Shown one piece after another: positions 55,532 to 60,856 of a DNA stretch of 60,856 nt (the first letter of the stretch is position 1; every line of letters begins with the position of its first letter). Where the stretch lies: positions 1-60,856 of the forward strand of contig JAAFJN010000031.1 in assembly GCA_013298845.1 (NCBI GenBank). The letters are read 5' to 3'. Origin of the DNA: Chitinophagales bacterium. GTDB lineage: Bacteria > Bacteroidota > Bacteroidia > Chitinophagales > Saprospiraceae. The notes below the pieces were generated by a model that saw nothing but the letters and a program-made list of their open reading frames with translations, did not search any database and was not told the origin of the DNA. The position numbers were made by a program, and so were the translations under genes.

Positions 55532-55604
<73 letters not shown>

Positions 55605-55605
55605 C

Positions 55606-55637: not shown

Positions 55638-55785
55638 ATGCCTATTTTGACATTTTAGATACTCAATGATTAGCCTGATAAGGCGAAACTTTTCGACCAA
55701 CCCTCCACAATCGTATAAAATTCAATTTTCCCCCAAAAAAATCCCTTCCACTGGCGACCTTTGTGCGGTAATTTTACTCTATACT

Positions 55786-56400
55786 ATGATTTCAAATGGT
55801 GAAGCATTGAGTGATCAGGAAAGAATTGACGCAATTCGGCAGGGTGGAACGTCACGTGATGGGCAATGGCGCATTATCGTGTTAACTTGGGGGCAATATT
55901 GCTGCCAAACAGTTATGCGCACAACCGGTTGTGATCAAAGCCTGGCCCAAGAAGGTTTTTCAATTGCGGTAGTTGGGGTGGATAAACGCATTCGGAGTTC
56001 GGAAGGGTACGATTTTTTAACATCAGCAACCCTGAAGACGTACCTGACAGCTTCTTCCATTTACGCGGTTAACCGACTATTGCACGCCGCCAGTCGTCAT
56101 ATCGTGGATGCTTCAACATTAGCCGAGGAAGCCGCTTTTGAACAAGTTGATCAATGGATTTCGCAGGATGCCTGTCGGTTGGTCATGGAAAAAGCCCTGG
56201 AGGGTATTGGTGAAAAAAGTAAAAAAATCTTGTTGTTGTTTAACGATGGATTCTCCATGAAAGAAATTGCCGCTGAAATGGGTTTTGACAATGAAACTAC
56301 CGCTCGTAAAGAAAAGTACAAAGCCCAGGAAAAATTTAAAAGACATCTGGCGGATAATCCACATTTTATTACTTTGCTGAAAGAAAACTGCTATGGATAA
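55786..56400 (+). CDS. ECF-like RNA polymerase sigma factor
   Basis: 204 residues. The C-terminal region 4 is clear: VMEKALEGIGEKSKKILLLFNDGFSMKEIAAEMGFDNETTARKEKYKAQEKFKRHL is a sigma-70 region 4 helix-turn-helix; below 20 residues the key words are FSMKEIAAEMGF and TTARKEKYKAQ. Region 2 is weaker (LTWGQYCCQTVMRTTG to YAVNRLL), as in many Bacteroidota ECF factors. ATG 55786 fits; the frame is open 40 codons further, over a GACCTTTG promoter-like element at 55756-55763. Its stop overlaps the next gene's start by 8 bp, so sigma and anti-sigma-like proteins are translationally coupled. Confidence 0.8.
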   Translation: MISNGEALSDQERIDAIRQGGTSRDGQWRIIVLTWGQYCCQTVMRTTGCDQSLAQEGFSIAVVGVDKRIRSSEGYDFLTSATLKTYLTASSIYAVNRLLHAASRHIVDASTLAEEAAFEQVDQWISQDACRLVMEKALEGIGEKSKKILLLFNDGFSMKEIAAEMGFDNETTARKEKYKAQEKFKRHLADNPHFITLLKENCYG

Positions 56401-57298
56401 TTACCAATTGGCCGATCGGGTTGAGGCGTGGATGCAGGGCCGATTAACGACGGCACAAATAACCGAATTACGCAACGCTATGGCCAATGACCCGGCAATG
56501 GCGCGGGAAGTAGAATTACACCGCCTTACCGTACAGGCCGGTACTTTTTTAGCCAATCAACGCTTGAAAAACAACGTTTTGGAATGGCTTCAACGCCCTT
56601 CTGAGCCTGTTCCGGCGACGGAGGAGGTGGTTGTCAACGCTTGGCGTAAATGGACTATTATTGTCGCGGCCATTGCGTTGCTGCTGTTCCTGTGGGCGGC
56701 CCTGGAATACGGTAATATTCGGCAGGAACAGCAAAAAAACTGGCAATTAGAGCAGGAAAACCGCCGTTTGCAAGAATTGTTGGAACAAGAAGACCGGGTG
56801 CCAACCGCTCCTTCTGTACCCGACGATTCTATTTCTATCAAACCTTCAACGGAGAAAAAATCGGGGGGGACCGGTGTGGTCTTTAGTCCAATGGCGTATT
56901 ACGTTCCACCCGCCGATTTGGGTGGGGTGTTGCGCCGCAATGATACGGCCCCAACAGTGGCGCAATCGCTGGACCTGGGCGTTGCGGCGTTTAAAAACGG
57001 AAAATTCAAAACCGCCGAACGGTACGCCCGGCAGGTATTAACCACCGATGCGTCGCAAAGAGAGGCACTCCGGCTGTTGGCTTTTGCCCAGTTTCGGCAG
57101 GGGAAATTTTTGGAAGCCAGTCACGCATTTAGCGGCTTGTCGACCATTTACCCGAGTAAAAAAGAAGAGGCCGAATGGCACTTATTATTGTGTTACCGGG
57201 CTTTAAACGACGGCAAAACGGCGTATAAAGCCTTGTTAAAACGTATTTTAGCCAATCCGGACCACGCTTTTTACGCCAATGCGCAACAACTAAAATAA
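56393..57298 (+). CDS. membrane anti-sigma-like protein with periplasmic TPR domain
   Basis: 301 residues. The N-terminal part (1-70) resembles zinc-free anti-sigma domains: ADRVEAWMQGRLTTAQITELRNAM. One membrane helix lies at about 87-105 (WTIIVAAIALLLFLWAALEYG), then a short coiled coil (107-134), a Ser/Pro/Lys-rich linker, and a C-terminal TPR-like region (about 190-301) with FKNGKFKTAERYARQVLTTD and FRQGKFLEASHAFSGL. The layout fits a cytosolic sigma-binding domain coupled to a periplasmic sensor. It overlaps the sigma gene by 8 bp. Its TAA is directly followed by the stop of the convergent CHAT gene, with no base between. Confidence 0.75.
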   Translation: MDNYQLADRVEAWMQGRLTTAQITELRNAMANDPAMAREVELHRLTVQAGTFLANQRLKNNVLEWLQRPSEPVPATEEVVVNAWRKWTIIVAAIALLLFLWAALEYGNIRQEQQKNWQLEQENRRLQELLEQEDRVPTAPSVPDDSISIKPSTEKKSGGTGVVFSPMAYYVPPADLGGVLRRNDTAPTVAQSLDLGVAAFKNGKFKTAERYARQVLTTDASQREALRLLAFAQFRQGKFLEASHAFSGLSTIYPSKKEEAEWHLLLCYRALNDGKTAYKALLKRILANPDHAFYANAQQLK

Positions 57299-60286
57299 CT
57301 ATTCTACCAACACAAACCCGGCCCACATTTCGGGGTCTTTGTATTTCTTTTTCATATCGAGTTGGGCGTGGTGAAACGCCGTGGGGATGTCCATTTTTTC
57401 GGTTAAATAAAGCCGGTAGAACAGCGTCATCAGTTCTTCGGTGGCGGCATCGGGAACGGCCCAAAGGCTGATGAGCAGGTAACGCGCACCGGCAACCTTA
57501 AAGGCGCGTTGCAAGCCAAAAACGCCCTCGTGCCCCATTTCAGTCCCTAAACCCGTGTTGCAGGCCGATAATACCACCAATTCGGTATTGGGCAGTGATA
57601 AAGCACTTACTTCGTAGGCGGTGAGCACGCCATCTTCCATGTTGTTTTCCAATGGTTTTTGGGTTTTGCGCGCAAAATTGGCACCCGCCAAATACAGCCC
57701 CGAACGCAAATAAGGATGAATATCAATTTGCGGGATAAGACTGTTGGAAACCGGGCTGAACTTTGTTGTTTGCCGTTTGATGATTTTATTTTGCGAAAAA
57801 CCATGCGTCGCTACGTGAATAATTCGGGGCGAGGTGGTTGAACGGCCGGCGAATGTTTTAAATGCCTCTTCGGTGGCGGAAAAGCCGGATAAGGCTTTGA
57901 CGCTGTAATTGGGCGTTAAGAGTTGTTGGATTTTGCCAATTTCGGAAAGTGTGGCCGGTAAATAGGGGAGTGGTTGCTGATTTTGGGTGGAATCTTCTTC
58001 ATTGTACCATATTTGTGACCAGTCACCCCGGTATAACACGCCGTTTTCGGTATTTTTTTGAATAATAGCCGCTTTATCAGCCTCGTATTGGATACCTCCA
58101 AATAATAAAGCGGTTTGGTTATGGGTGGTTAATGGCGTTGGGGTGAGGGCCAATTGGCGGGTAGAGTTGAGCCGCACTAATTTGTATTGGTCAATCAGGC
58201 ATTTTTGCCCGGTTTCATTCAGGGCAATGGCATTTAGGTTGATATTGTGCATTAATCCACTGGGCGCGTAATAAACGGTGTGCACCTCTTTTAGCAGCGA
58301 TTCCAAGGGTTTCCACAACAGGTGATACAAAGAGGTGGCGCTTCCCAACCAATAAGCCACGTCTTTATTGTTGTTTAATCGCTCTTCCAACGTTTTCTGA
58401 TTGCATAACGGGATAAAATAAGGTTGTTTGTGGCCGGGAAGTAATACCAATGCTGCGTACAAGATGGTATCGGTATCGTAAGTGCGGAAGTAGCGATAAT
58501 TGATAAATTCGATGGCGGCTTCCCCGGTTCGGAGGGATTCTTGTACCTCTTGCCAAACGGGAATGCGGTTGTTTTGCCTAAGTGCCGGAATTTTTTGGAT
58601 CAACAAACGTTCGATCGCGTCGGTTTTTTGTTCCAACTCCAAAACATCTCCTCGTTCTCTGGCTGGTTTGAGGTATTCATCGGCGAGGCGGTGACGCGCT
58701 ACCTGCCAGCGGGTGTACAATGCTTTGGTGCTGCTGTCGGCCTGAGCGATGAAGTGGGCCAATTGACGGTTATAATCGAGCAAAAAACCGTTGAAAAACA
58801 AGGCATTGTCGTAACTCAATTCGGCCATGTTGGGGGTTAGCGAACGGTGGGCGTAAGAGTAAATAAGGGCAGAATAACGTTCCAAATTGTTCAGGTAAAG
58901 CAACATTTGTCGTTCCGAACTACTCGCGGCATACTCGGTTAAAATATCTCTCGACAATCGAAACGTTTCTTTAGCCCATTTTTCGGCAACGTCCGGTTGG
59001 TTGTTAAACTGGTATTGAAGAAAAAGATTTTGTGTGCTGGTGCAGTGGTCGGGGTGCCGCTCCCCTAATGTATTTCGGCGCACTTGGTACACTTTTTCAA
59101 ACAGTGGCGTTGATTTTTCGTACATACCACGGTTGAAATAATACAGGGCCAAATTTTGTTGAAACGTTATGTAAGCAGGGTGTTCTTCACCGACGGTTGC
59201 TTTTTTAAGGTCTAATGCCTGAAAGTACAATTTTTCGGCCTCCGTCATGCGCTCTTCAGATTCACGCAGCATGGCCAGGTTTTCCAACAAGGTAGGGTAA
59301 TCGGGGTGTTGCAATAAGTTAGCGGCTGCCGCAAGTTCAAAAGTTTTATCAAATATGCTGTCGGCTTGCTGGCAAAATCCCGCCTGACCGTACAAAAGAG
59401 CCAGGTTTCCGAGGTTAAAAATATATTCCGGGTGTTTGGTACCCAGGGTTTGTTCCTGAATGGACAAAATTTCTTTGTATAGCGGTTCCGATTTGGTATG
59501 GTTGTCTTCCAAAAGGAAAAGCCCGGCCAATCCGTTGAGGTATTTGGCGTAATCGGGGTGGCTTTTCCCGGTTGCGGCGGCCTGAATGTCTTTGGCATCC
59601 GTGAACAGTTGTTCGGCGGCGGTATATTTTCCCTGGGCCATGAGCAACAGCCCCAGATTATACAAGCCTTGTGCGTAATCGGGGTGGTTTTTGCCCGGGT
59701 TTACGGCTCTAATCTCCACGATGGTCTGGTTAAGCGGCTCGGCCTGGGGGTATTTTCCCATTTTTAGATAAAGGGTCGCCAACCCGTTTAGGGCAATCGC
59801 ATAGTCGGGATGCCGGTTGCCCACTGCATTTTCCATAATGTTTTTTACCCGTAAAAACAGCGGTTCGGCTTCATCAAAGCGGCCGTTGTTCATGTACATC
59901 ATGGCCAGGTTATAGGTGGAGCGACCGTAATCGGGGTGGTTGGTGCCCAGTATTTTTCCGCGCCATTCGATGGCTTCCAGGTAGTTGATTTCTGCTTTGT
60001 CGAATACTTGGGTGTTGTAATAAATTCCGCCCAGCCAGTTCGATGCGGCCGCGTAACGCGGGTTTTGTTTACCCAATTTTTCGGCGGCCGTTTGTTGGGC
60101 CTCCAAAGCCAGGGGTAATGCGGTATCGTATTGTCGCGCCCGAAGAAACTTGACCGCCAGAGCGTTGAGGCTATCCACTTTTTTTTCAAAAAAGAGCGTA
60201 TCGGCGGCCGTTTGGGCGGATAATGTTACCGCAAAAAGAAAAAATACAACTGCATAAACCGGGCGTTTTTTTGGTAAAATGTCCAT
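57299..60286 (-). CDS. exported TPR-CHAT caspase-like protease
   Basis: 995 residues. Signal peptide 1-25 (PVYAVVFFLFAVTLSAQ), then about nine kinesin-light-chain-type TPRs of 42 residues (about 55-430) marked by repeated HPDYA/HPEYI words, a helical middle (430-690), and a C-terminal CHAT domain (about 700-995). The catalytic dyad is His828 in IHVATHGF and Cys909 in LVVLSACNTGLG, both present, and SLWAVPDAATEELM follows as in active members. CHAT proteins are clan CD peptidases related to caspases and separase. The signal peptide puts it in the periplasm or outside. Convergent with the sigma/anti-sigma pair, stop against stop. Confidence 0.9.
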   Translation of the reverse strand: MDILPKKRPVYAVVFFLFAVTLSAQTAADTLFFEKKVDSLNALAVKFLRARQYDTALPLALEAQQTAAEKLGKQNPRYAAASNWLGGIYYNTQVFDKAEINYLEAIEWRGKILGTNHPDYGRSTYNLAMMYMNNGRFDEAEPLFLRVKNIMENAVGNRHPDYAIALNGLATLYLKMGKYPQAEPLNQTIVEIRAVNPGKNHPDYAQGLYNLGLLLMAQGKYTAAEQLFTDAKDIQAAATGKSHPDYAKYLNGLAGLFLLEDNHTKSEPLYKEILSIQEQTLGTKHPEYIFNLGNLALLYGQAGFCQQADSIFDKTFELAAAANLLQHPDYPTLLENLAMLRESEERMTEAEKLYFQALDLKKATVGEEHPAYITFQQNLALYYFNRGMYEKSTPLFEKVYQVRRNTLGERHPDHCTSTQNLFLQYQFNNQPDVAEKWAKETFRLSRDILTEYAASSSERQMLLYLNNLERYSALIYSYAHRSLTPNMAELSYDNALFFNGFLLDYNRQLAHFIAQADSSTKALYTRWQVARHRLADEYLKPARERGDVLELEQKTDAIERLLIQKIPALRQNNRIPVWQEVQESLRTGEAAIEFINYRYFRTYDTDTILYAALVLLPGHKQPYFIPLCNQKTLEERLNNNKDVAYWLGSATSLYHLLWKPLESLLKEVHTVYYAPSGLMHNINLNAIALNETGQKCLIDQYKLVRLNSTRQLALTPTPLTTHNQTALLFGGIQYEADKAAIIQKNTENGVLYRGDWSQIWYNEEDSTQNQQPLPYLPATLSEIGKIQQLLTPNYSVKALSGFSATEEAFKTFAGRSTTSPRIIHVATHGFSQNKIIKRQTTKFSPVSNSLIPQIDIHPYLRSGLYLAGANFARKTQKPLENNMEDGVLTAYEVSALSLPNTELVVLSACNTGLGTEMGHEGVFGLQRAFKVAGARYLLISLWAVPDAATEELMTLFYRLYLTEKMDIPTAFHHAQLDMKKKYKDPEMWAGFVLVE

Positions 60287-60497: not shown

Positions 60498-60856
60498 ATG
60501 AAAAAATGCTACCTGTATTTATTGGTTGCCAGCCTGCTTTTTTTGCAAAAAAGTGAGGTTTTTGCCCAAACATACGACTCCGGAACCAAAAAAGCGGCCT
60601 CCGCCGTGGAGACCCTAAAAGGTTTGTTACCCGGGCAAGATGAAACCGGTACTGGTACATCTGATCCCAATACCGGATCGGGTGATACAGGTGGTTCCGG
60701 GAGTAATACGGGTGGCACCGGCGGCACAGGTGGTACTGGCGGCGGCACAGGTGGTACCGGTGGCGGCACTGGTGGTACTGGCGGCGGCACAGGTGGTTCC
60801 GGCGGCGGCACCGGCGGTTCCGGCGGCGGCACAGGTGGTACTGGCGGCGGCACGGG
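60498..60856 (+). CDS. secreted Gly-rich heptad-repeat protein (3' end outside window)
   Basis: Starts MKKCYLYLLVASLLFLQKSEVFAQ, a clear signal peptide, then a linker (TYDSGTKKAASAVETLKGLL) and Asp/Gly/Thr/Ser sequence leading into units of seven residues, T/S-GGGTGG, repeated about six times up to the window end (119 codons seen, no stop). The 21-bp DNA unit is GC-rich and variable at third positions. Function unknown; it could be a surface protein with a spacer or stalk. Divergent from the TPR-CHAT gene. Confidence 0.72.
   Translation, partial: MKKCYLYLLVASLLFLQKSEVFAQTYDSGTKKAASAVETLKGLLPGQDETGTGTSDPNTGSGDTGGSGSNTGGTGGTGGTGGGTGGTGGGTGGTGGGTGGSGGGTGGSGGGTGGTGGGT
60725..60856 (+). repeat. 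21-bp tandem repeat coding Gly-rich heptads
   Basis: Units of the type GGTACTGGCGGCGGCACA+GGT repeat about six times and reach the window edge. The antisense Pro/Val-rich frame (60509-60853) is its shadow. Confidence 0.85.

Follow-up and report, generated by a model that had tools for sequence, protein, structure and literature searches.

A recurrent module of a sigma factor, a membrane anti-sigma-like protein and an exported TPR-CHAT protease in Saprospiraceae, with a candidate cleavage site in the periplasmic linker

In a 60,856-nucleotide stretch of DNA from a Chitinophagales bacterium of the family Saprospiraceae (contig JAAFJN010000031.1 of assembly GCA_013298845.1, hereafter the window), a sigma factor gene is followed by a gene for a single-pass membrane protein with an anti-sigma-like cytosolic domain and a periplasmic ectodomain, and this gene meets a convergent gene for an exported TPR-CHAT protease. 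The arrangement raises the question of whether the protease acts on its neighbour. The initial annotation of the locus had proposed that it cuts the periplasmic domain of the anti-sigma protein, possibly through contacts between the TPRs of both partners, and so releases the sigma factor. That interpretation is partly supported here, namely in a recurrent module, a predicted shared compartment, co-variation of ectodomain and CHAT and a candidate site, whereas TPR-TPR recognition as a rule is not supported. From the sequence comparisons described below, we consider it probable that the periplasmic CHAT protease cuts the neighbouring anti-sigma protein after an arginine in its linker and thereby frees the sigma factor. 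Our own handles are used for loci (L), genomes (G) and contigs (C).

The module, as seen in its three genes, their linkage, the catalytic dyad, the linker residue and the co-variations, is real and recurrent. Among ten well-assembled genomes of the genus, picked for few contigs and including the window's own, 46 of the 91 CHAT matches lie within 5 kb of an anti-sigma match, against approximately 1.7 expected, these counts being of profile matches rather than whole genes and the expectation assuming uniform placement (all 91 CHAT rows, and the 71 anti-sigma rows with a model start <= 12 and E <= 1e-6). Conversely, 45 of the 71 anti-sigma matches have a CHAT within 5 kb, and each of the ten genomes contains at least one linked pair. 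When G007, a near relative of G009, was left out, 42 of 84 CHATs were linked against 1.6 expected, and a hand-chosen list of 65 anti-sigma rows gave 49 of 91 against 1.5. Chance adjacency of the two genes is ruled out by the 46 linked CHATs, and the co-occurrence outside the window without which the initial interpretation would have fallen is thus found. The sigma gene adjoins the anti-sigma gene on its upstream side in all 41 neighbourhoods inspected (40 homologues and the window), and a CHAT gene lies within 2.5 kb in 26 of them; the 40 were chosen before the CHAT list had been seen, as a non-random pick in which a CHAT was already known beside some. In a larger set of 82 anti-sigma proteins the sigma gene is upstream in 79; the tally of orientations in this larger set is enriched by design because some regions were taken for their CHAT or anti-sigma matches.

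The closest titled CHAT loci come from Saprospiraceae metagenome-assembled genomes in 12 of 13 cases, the remaining one being labelled Bacteroidota, and triads also occur in genomes from other families of the order (G046, G037 and G052). An anti-sigma neighbour was found in five of the 79 titled CHAT loci, all of them Saprospiraceae (L071, L079, L081, L082 and L083). With our models it was detected in none of the 66 CHAT loci L084-L149, two of which (L085 and L099) are titled Saprospiraceae and two of which (L092 and L139) have a sigma match alone. These models were trained on the window's order and mostly on one genus, and more distant cases could therefore be missed.

The 46 linked CHAT matches stand in all four orientations relative to the anti-sigma gene (15 codirectional downstream, 15 convergent, 11 divergent and 5 codirectional upstream). 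Linkage of this kind would also suit a regulator beside its target, the CHAT being an effector gene of the sigma factor that is kept adjacent for co-regulation and does not act on the anti-sigma protein, with the sigma factor activated otherwise. The 66 loci mentioned above fit such an effector role, as do the 45 of the 91 CHAT matches that have no anti-sigma neighbour within 5 kb; the latter speak against a general role of CHATs in sigma release and indicate that they have other jobs as well.

For cleavage to take place, protease and ectodomain have to meet, and a shared compartment, as assumed in the initial annotation, is predicted for them. According to simple hydropathy rules, 52 of the 67 adjacent CHATs whose N terminus is complete begin with a signal-peptide-like sequence; among the controls, 6 of 79 sigma proteins and 2 of 67 internal stretches of CHATs were positive. 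By the same kind of rule, at least one transmembrane-like segment is present in 72 of the 82 anti-sigma proteins, and exactly one in 71. Nine of the ten proteins below the rule score 1.34-1.60, the threshold being 1.6. Signal peptides are a class-wide property of such CHATs, being predicted for 58 of the 64 examined in L084-L149, so the export evidence is permissive, and we rejected signal peptides as specific evidence for the pairing. The catalytic His is present in all 61 triads and the catalytic Cys in 60, the exception being truncated.

The partnership between ectodomain and protease proposed earlier is supported by co-variation, measured as distance-matrix correlations on 61 triads and again on 47 non-redundant ones, with global and within-genome shuffles; the protein distances are large and partly saturated. 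Among the 47, ectodomain and CHAT domain correlate with r 0.326, a value that none of 1000 global and none of 1000 within-genome shuffles reached, and sigma factor and cytosolic domain correlate with r 0.170 (8 and 21 of 1000, respectively). Sigma factor and CHAT do not correlate (r -0.015; 585 and 647 of 1000), and we therefore rejected the explanation that the ectodomain-CHAT signal arises from inheritance of the triad as one block. That signal was also recovered under a stricter redundancy cut (n = 25, r 0.365; 5 and 44 of 1000 shuffles), by Spearman ranks (0 and 1 shuffles as high), in the genus alone (n = 39; 0 and 1) and inside each of the two CHAT types (0 of 2000 shuffles for the 34 triads of type S and 13 of 2000 for the 13 of type L), and the sigma-cytosolic signal was weaker in the genus alone (20 and 95 of 1000). 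The overall pattern is as would be expected if the sigma factor binds the cytosolic side and the CHAT acts in the periplasm. An effector merely placed beside its regulator does not predict that ectodomain and CHAT co-vary while sigma factor and CHAT do not, nor that a linker residue tracks the protease pocket as described below, and we regard this explanation as unlikely.

The ectodomains of 48 CHAT-linked proteins (type S or untyped, that is, those not classed as type L) and of 14 CHAT-less ones were aligned. For the numbers that follow, set 1 comprises 61 of the 82 anti-sigma proteins, those in G-handle genomes with a sigma gene found and a CHAT of more than 600 amino acids within 3.1 kb; the untyped proteins, seven in number, lie outside it. 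The alignment contains a single majority-Arg column, located in the linker just before the folded ectodomain. Arg occupies it in 41 of the 47 linked proteins with a residue there (the rest are four Met, one Lys and one Leu) versus 4 of the 14 CHAT-less ones (Fisher 5.6e-5), and the following residue is most often Gly, Ser or Asp. One of the four Arg-bearing CHAT-less proteins is L056, whose CHAT gene is apparently cut by a contig end. A flank-only model in which the Arg position had been blanked found the Arg at 18 of 37 held-out sites, with a background of 5.4%; elsewhere, its best place mostly differed from the site chosen by eye. The Arg motif is also present in most type-L partners. At least 5 of the 20 type-L partners of set 1 have no TPR match (eight odd-looking ones were scanned), and these five keep the motif. 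TPR-TPR recognition, as put forward in the initial annotation, is therefore unsupported as a rule. The ectodomains of the five, L164, L173, L174, L176 and L177, look beta-rich by eye.

These data also bear on the idea that the genes cluster without functional contact and that the Arg is conserved for structural reasons, as a cap ahead of the ectodomain. In favour of it, both CHAT and anti-sigma genes are multicopy in these genomes; against it stands the excess of linked pairs, and the Arg is kept before TPR and non-TPR ectodomains alike and is mostly absent from CHAT-less relatives that do have TPRs. Already largely refuted by the co-variation, linkage and residue-pocket results, a mere clustering appears highly improbable.

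Clan CD peptidases that cut after Arg carry an acidic residue where helix 1 begins or close to that point (gingipain D163, MALT1 D365 and a Glu or Asp in separase), and MALT1 and separase have a second pocket acid, E500 in loop 5 in the case of MALT1 (excerpts of PMC4357240 and PMC4626109); in separase, D2151 is the residue that recognises the P1 Arg (excerpt of PMC9729208). In the window CHAT, E782 precedes the His by 46 residues, and D946, in the motif SLWxVxD, follows the Cys by 37; by position and motif rather than by superposition, both are presumably placed like these known pocket acids. The Asp of SLWxVxD had been picked as a candidate before testing.

Pocket state was then compared with the linker residue of the partner. 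In set 1, 59 of the 61 triads could be scored (L170 was unclear and L032 truncated), with the calls for L161 (Thr), L160 (Arg) and L057 (Lys) fixed after the CHAT columns had been seen; E782 is lost in three of the eight triads with a non-basic linker residue and in none of the 51 with a basic one. Set 2, held out, consisted of 80 regions with 39 anti-sigma proteins and 34 distinct adjacent CHATs, the nearest partner being taken where a CHAT has two (L275 and L277); its residue calls were read before the pocket columns and noted after them, L275 having first been called 'no clear Arg' and later Thr. Three CHATs of this set lose an acid, and exactly these three have a nearest partner without Arg (p 1.7e-4). 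Set 3 consisted of 23 pairs with mostly weaker CHATs, up to 4.8 kb apart (L283), including three (L191, L193 and L231) from earlier loci whose anti-sigma gene had been missed. Seventeen were scored, leaving out the truncated L295 and L297 and the unclear L193, L289, L298 and L301, with residue calls recorded before the pocket check, although the E782 state of the L231 and L287 CHATs had already entered the tally of CHATs without an anti-sigma neighbour. Four of the 5 non-basic triads have lost D946, compared with none of the 12 basic ones (p 0.0021). Taken together, the held-out sets have an acidic residue at D946 in 43 of 43 basic versus 1 of 8 non-basic triads (p 6.9e-8, or 3.1e-6 when a group of related members is counted as one lineage) and both acids in 39 of 43 versus 1 of 8, E782 alone giving p 0.068. 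Over all 110 triads, both acids are kept by 89 of the 94 with a basic residue and by 6 of the 16 without one (p 3.9e-7). CHATs beside partners with a non-basic linker residue (Met, Leu or other) thus tend to lack one of the presumed Arg-pocket acids, and these counts make D946 the better-supported residue and E782 the weaker one. The cut in the periplasmic part of the anti-sigma protein proposed at the outset has thereby gained a candidate site, whose identity tracks the presumed protease pocket, with exceptions.

These exceptions, and several other results, weigh against cleavage at this site. Besides L056, three of the 14 CHAT-less proteins have the linker Arg, and all linker residues were called by eye. 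E782 was found post hoc, by a column scan. D946 does not discriminate in set 1, where it is lost in 0 of 8 non-basic and 1 of 51 basic triads (the Arg-type L169), and five of the eight non-basic triads of that set keep both acids. In set 3 the combined test of the two acids is not significant (p 0.13), four of the 12 Arg-type triads (L191, L288, L296 and L299) have lost E782, and the Leu-type L292 keeps both acids. Some members of the held-out sets are closely related to members of set 1 (L205/L160 and L258/L179 are examples), and of the seven changes to pocket loss counted on all branches of a quick tree of the set 1 and set 2 CHATs, only two independent pocket-loss pairs lie on strongly supported branches. 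CHATs without an anti-sigma neighbour mostly keep the acids too (E in 50 of 51 and D in 47 of 51), so that only the co-variation of the acids counts as evidence. Regarding the distance correlations, cytosolic domain and CHAT were matched by 3 of 1000 within-genome and 117 of 1000 global shuffles in all 61 triads, and in type L (n = 13) the sigma-cytosolic signal fails to reach significance (225 of 2000), unlike the sigma-ectodomain signal (45 of 2000).

The same co-variation data would be obtained with a pseudosubstrate. The ectodomain might be a securin-like inhibitor or docking partner of the CHAT, with the linker Arg held in the active site and not cut productively and the anti-sigma protein controlling the CHAT, not the reverse; the CHAT does resemble separase, which is restrained by securin (excerpt of PMC9729208). 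The site, however, looks like a substrate P1 position, its Arg being replaced by Met or Leu as the pocket changes, it is mostly followed by Gly, Ser or Asp, and it lies in a linker and not in a folded inhibitor. There is also a precedent for cleavage in Csx29/Csx30. We therefore think a securin-like role quite unlikely; both this and the effector role account for the co-variation less well than cleavage does or omit part of it.

Some loci depart from the usual triad. Seven CHAT-less sigma/anti-sigma pairs (L036, L039, L043, L045, L047, L052 and L059) adjoin a conserved secreted-protein gene of about 241 codons (MKKLFLLP...YMHYIGQ type), and their anti-sigma genes may form one clade. Their linkers mostly have no Arg, L059 having one, and these pairs may therefore be activated in another way. 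Three or four CHAT matches stand in tandem at L232 (G033:C208) and L165 (G021:C26). At L185 (G009:C3:100799-101851), a CHAT stretch with several stop codons, apparently a decayed copy, lies beside an open anti-sigma gene. In G022, a CHAT with neither pocket acid (L270, C16) and a second, Met-type anti-sigma gene (L277, C126) are located near two contig ends and may belong to one broken divergent triad.

As to the cleavage itself, the order of events, the release of the sigma factor and the signal, we infer the following scheme, in which the module would be a proteolytic switch leading from the envelope to the nucleoid. The cytosolic domain of the membrane protein would keep the extracytoplasmic function (ECF)-type sigma factor inactive, and the exported protease would sense a signal by means of its own TPR region, the obvious candidate sensor. 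The conserved Arg of the periplasmic linker, R181 or R182 in the window protein, would be the residue after which the activated CHAT cuts, and the ectodomain would be shed. By analogy with RseA and RsiW, the remaining membrane stub would become a substrate of a site-2 protease, which would free the sigma factor; the genome has two PF02163 matches as M50 site-2 protease candidates, which could complete this second cleavage. More tentatively, and as something we are slightly inclined to doubt, each genome could contain many parallel, insulated channels that lead across the inner membrane from a separase-like CHAT to a sigma factor, each pair being matched by the fit of the ectodomain and by the residue-pocket combination (an acidic pocket for Arg, an altered one for Met or Leu), and the CRISPR Craspase could be a captured cytosolic offshoot of a broader CHAT-anti-sigma logic.

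The TPR-CHAT protein of Craspase is cytoplasmic and has no export signal, unlike the window CHAT with its signal-peptide-like N terminus. In a profile search of the PDB, chains named CHAT domain protein, which we take to be the Craspase entries, matched weakly, except 8rot, and have Ser at the D946 position of the profile alignment. Separase D2151 is replaced by K670 in Scalindua Csx29 (excerpt of PMC9729208), and both residues are consistent with Csx29 not being an Arg cutter. Craspase likewise combines a TPR-CHAT protease (Csx29), a sigma inhibitor (Csx30) and an ECF-like CASP-sigma/RpoE factor; Csx29 is activated by Cas7-11 and target RNA, and the cut in Csx30, which is proposed to relieve the inhibition of the sigma factor, is reported to lie either behind L407 or between residues 427 and 429 (excerpts of PMC10028731 and PMC9729208). 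We propose that the module works like this switch and differs from it in compartment, topology and apparent specificity: an exported CHAT is paired with a membrane-spanning inhibitor, and a site that is mostly Arg with a pocket that has kept its acidic residues. No CRISPR partner was seen in the neighbouring open reading frames; Cas7-11, repeats and genome-wide partners were not searched for. When the anti-sigma family profile was compared with PDB chains, the best 60 of 194 matches were TPR or similar repeat proteins and designs, none of them named Csx30.

We further propose, by analogy, that the module is comparable to RseA-type proteolysis, except that its first protease would be of a new kind. 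The RseA/DegS/RseP and RsiW systems also have a membrane anti-sigma protein, a periplasmic first cut and a site-2 protease (excerpt of PMC10028731). Their first protease is a PDZ serine protease or another general envelope protease, whereas the first cut here would be made by a dedicated, locus-encoded cysteine protease of the caspase/separase type. In CalpL/CalpT of type III CRISPR systems a protease also cuts a sigma-factor inhibitor, but CalpL is a cytoplasmic Lon-SAVED protease switched on by cyclic oligoadenylate, so that protease type, trigger and compartment differ. In EACC2-caspase systems a caspase-fold gene lies beside genes for an ECF sigma factor and a DUF1822 TPR protein; the excerpt of PMC8195603 presents these as counter-invader conflict-type systems with EACC2 and variable C-terminal domains, and it describes no membrane anti-sigma protein or cut site in them. 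Among the matches listed in a search of the open-access literature, which left subscription papers and preprints outside its scope, no title or abstract describes the module.

For the window itself, the three-gene arrangement described in the initial annotation was confirmed in its coordinates, the overlap, the abutting stop codons and the H828/C909 dyad (Table 1). The sigma and anti-sigma reading frames, both on the plus strand, overlap by 8 bases, and the TAA of the anti-sigma gene ends at 57298 immediately before the convergent CHAT stop, which starts on the minus strand at 57299, with 0 bases between. The CHAT protein matches Pfam CHAT (PF12770) with 177.6 bits against a cut-off of 24, with the dyad inside the match, and consists of the signal-peptide-like N terminus, TPR_12/TPR_10 repeats and the CHAT domain, in this order.

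Table 1. Coordinates of the sigma/anti-sigma/CHAT locus and its features in the window
Feature	Coordinates	Strand	Remarks
Sigma gene	55786..56400	+	ECF-like sigma-70 family factor, 204 aa; TIGR02937 E 1.4e-9
Anti-sigma-like gene	56393..57298	+	301 aa, single-pass: cytosolic domain, transmembrane segment, linker, periplasmic TPRs
N-terminal anti-sigma-like domain	56393..56647	+	about residues 1-85; NF052375 at E <= 0.01 in 19 of 24 family members
Transmembrane segment	56651..56704	+	residues 87-104, hydrophobic
Periplasmic linker of anti-sigma protein	56705..56968	+	
R181-R182, candidate cleavage site GGVLR/RND (cut at the slash)	56933..56938	+	
TPR ectodomain	56969..57262	+	about residues 193-290; Pfam TPR pair
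Exported TPR-CHAT protease gene	57299..60286	-	995 aa
Signal peptide-like N terminus of CHAT (MDILPKKRPVYAVVFFLFAVTLSAQ)	60212..60286	-	sequence
CHAT protease domain	57305..58342	-	Pfam match
E782, presumed first acid of S1 (Arg) pocket	57941..57943	-	
Catalytic H828	57803..57805	-	
Catalytic C909	57560..57562	-	
D946, presumed second acid of S1 (Arg) pocket, in SLWxVxD	57449..57451	-	

The other two window proteins score below the cut-offs of their families. The sigma factor reaches 37.7 bits against TIGR02937 (cut-off 42.9), the anti-sigma protein matches the NCBIfam 'anti-sigma factor' model NF052375 at E 1.8e-4 and 21.6 bits (cut-off 100), and its TPR pair lies below the Pfam TPR cut-offs (best E 2.9e-5). 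Both assignments are firmed up by relatives: TIGR02937 was matched by all ten sigma relatives scanned, above the cut-off in seven, and zf-HC2 was matched at E <= 0.05 by 6 of 24 anti-sigma relatives, in addition to the NF052375 matches given in Table 1. A PDB search with the sigma factor gave nothing convincing, and PADLOC gave 0 matches for the sigma, anti-sigma and CHAT proteins of the window. The ATG at 55786 yields the 204-residue sigma factor, and an in-frame ATG at 55666 would yield 244 residues, the additional 40 (55666-55785) reaching into the stretch that follows a tRNA-Ala gene (55532-55605). Genes judged by eye to be ribosomal-protein-like lie just upstream of the module, and on the other side, at 60498-60854, a gene for a secreted protein with Gly-Thr-rich repeats begins and runs off the window end.

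To our knowledge, few CHAT proteases have known substrates outside CRISPR and gasdermin loci. CHATs are common in these bacteria, and for dozens of them a candidate substrate can now be named and the cut residue and pocket predicted. If cleavage does occur as proposed, proteases of the caspase/separase type would be added to those that initiate sigma-factor signalling across the membrane, the expansion of CHATs in these genomes would find a partial explanation, and the logic of Csx29/Csx30 would have a non-CRISPR setting.

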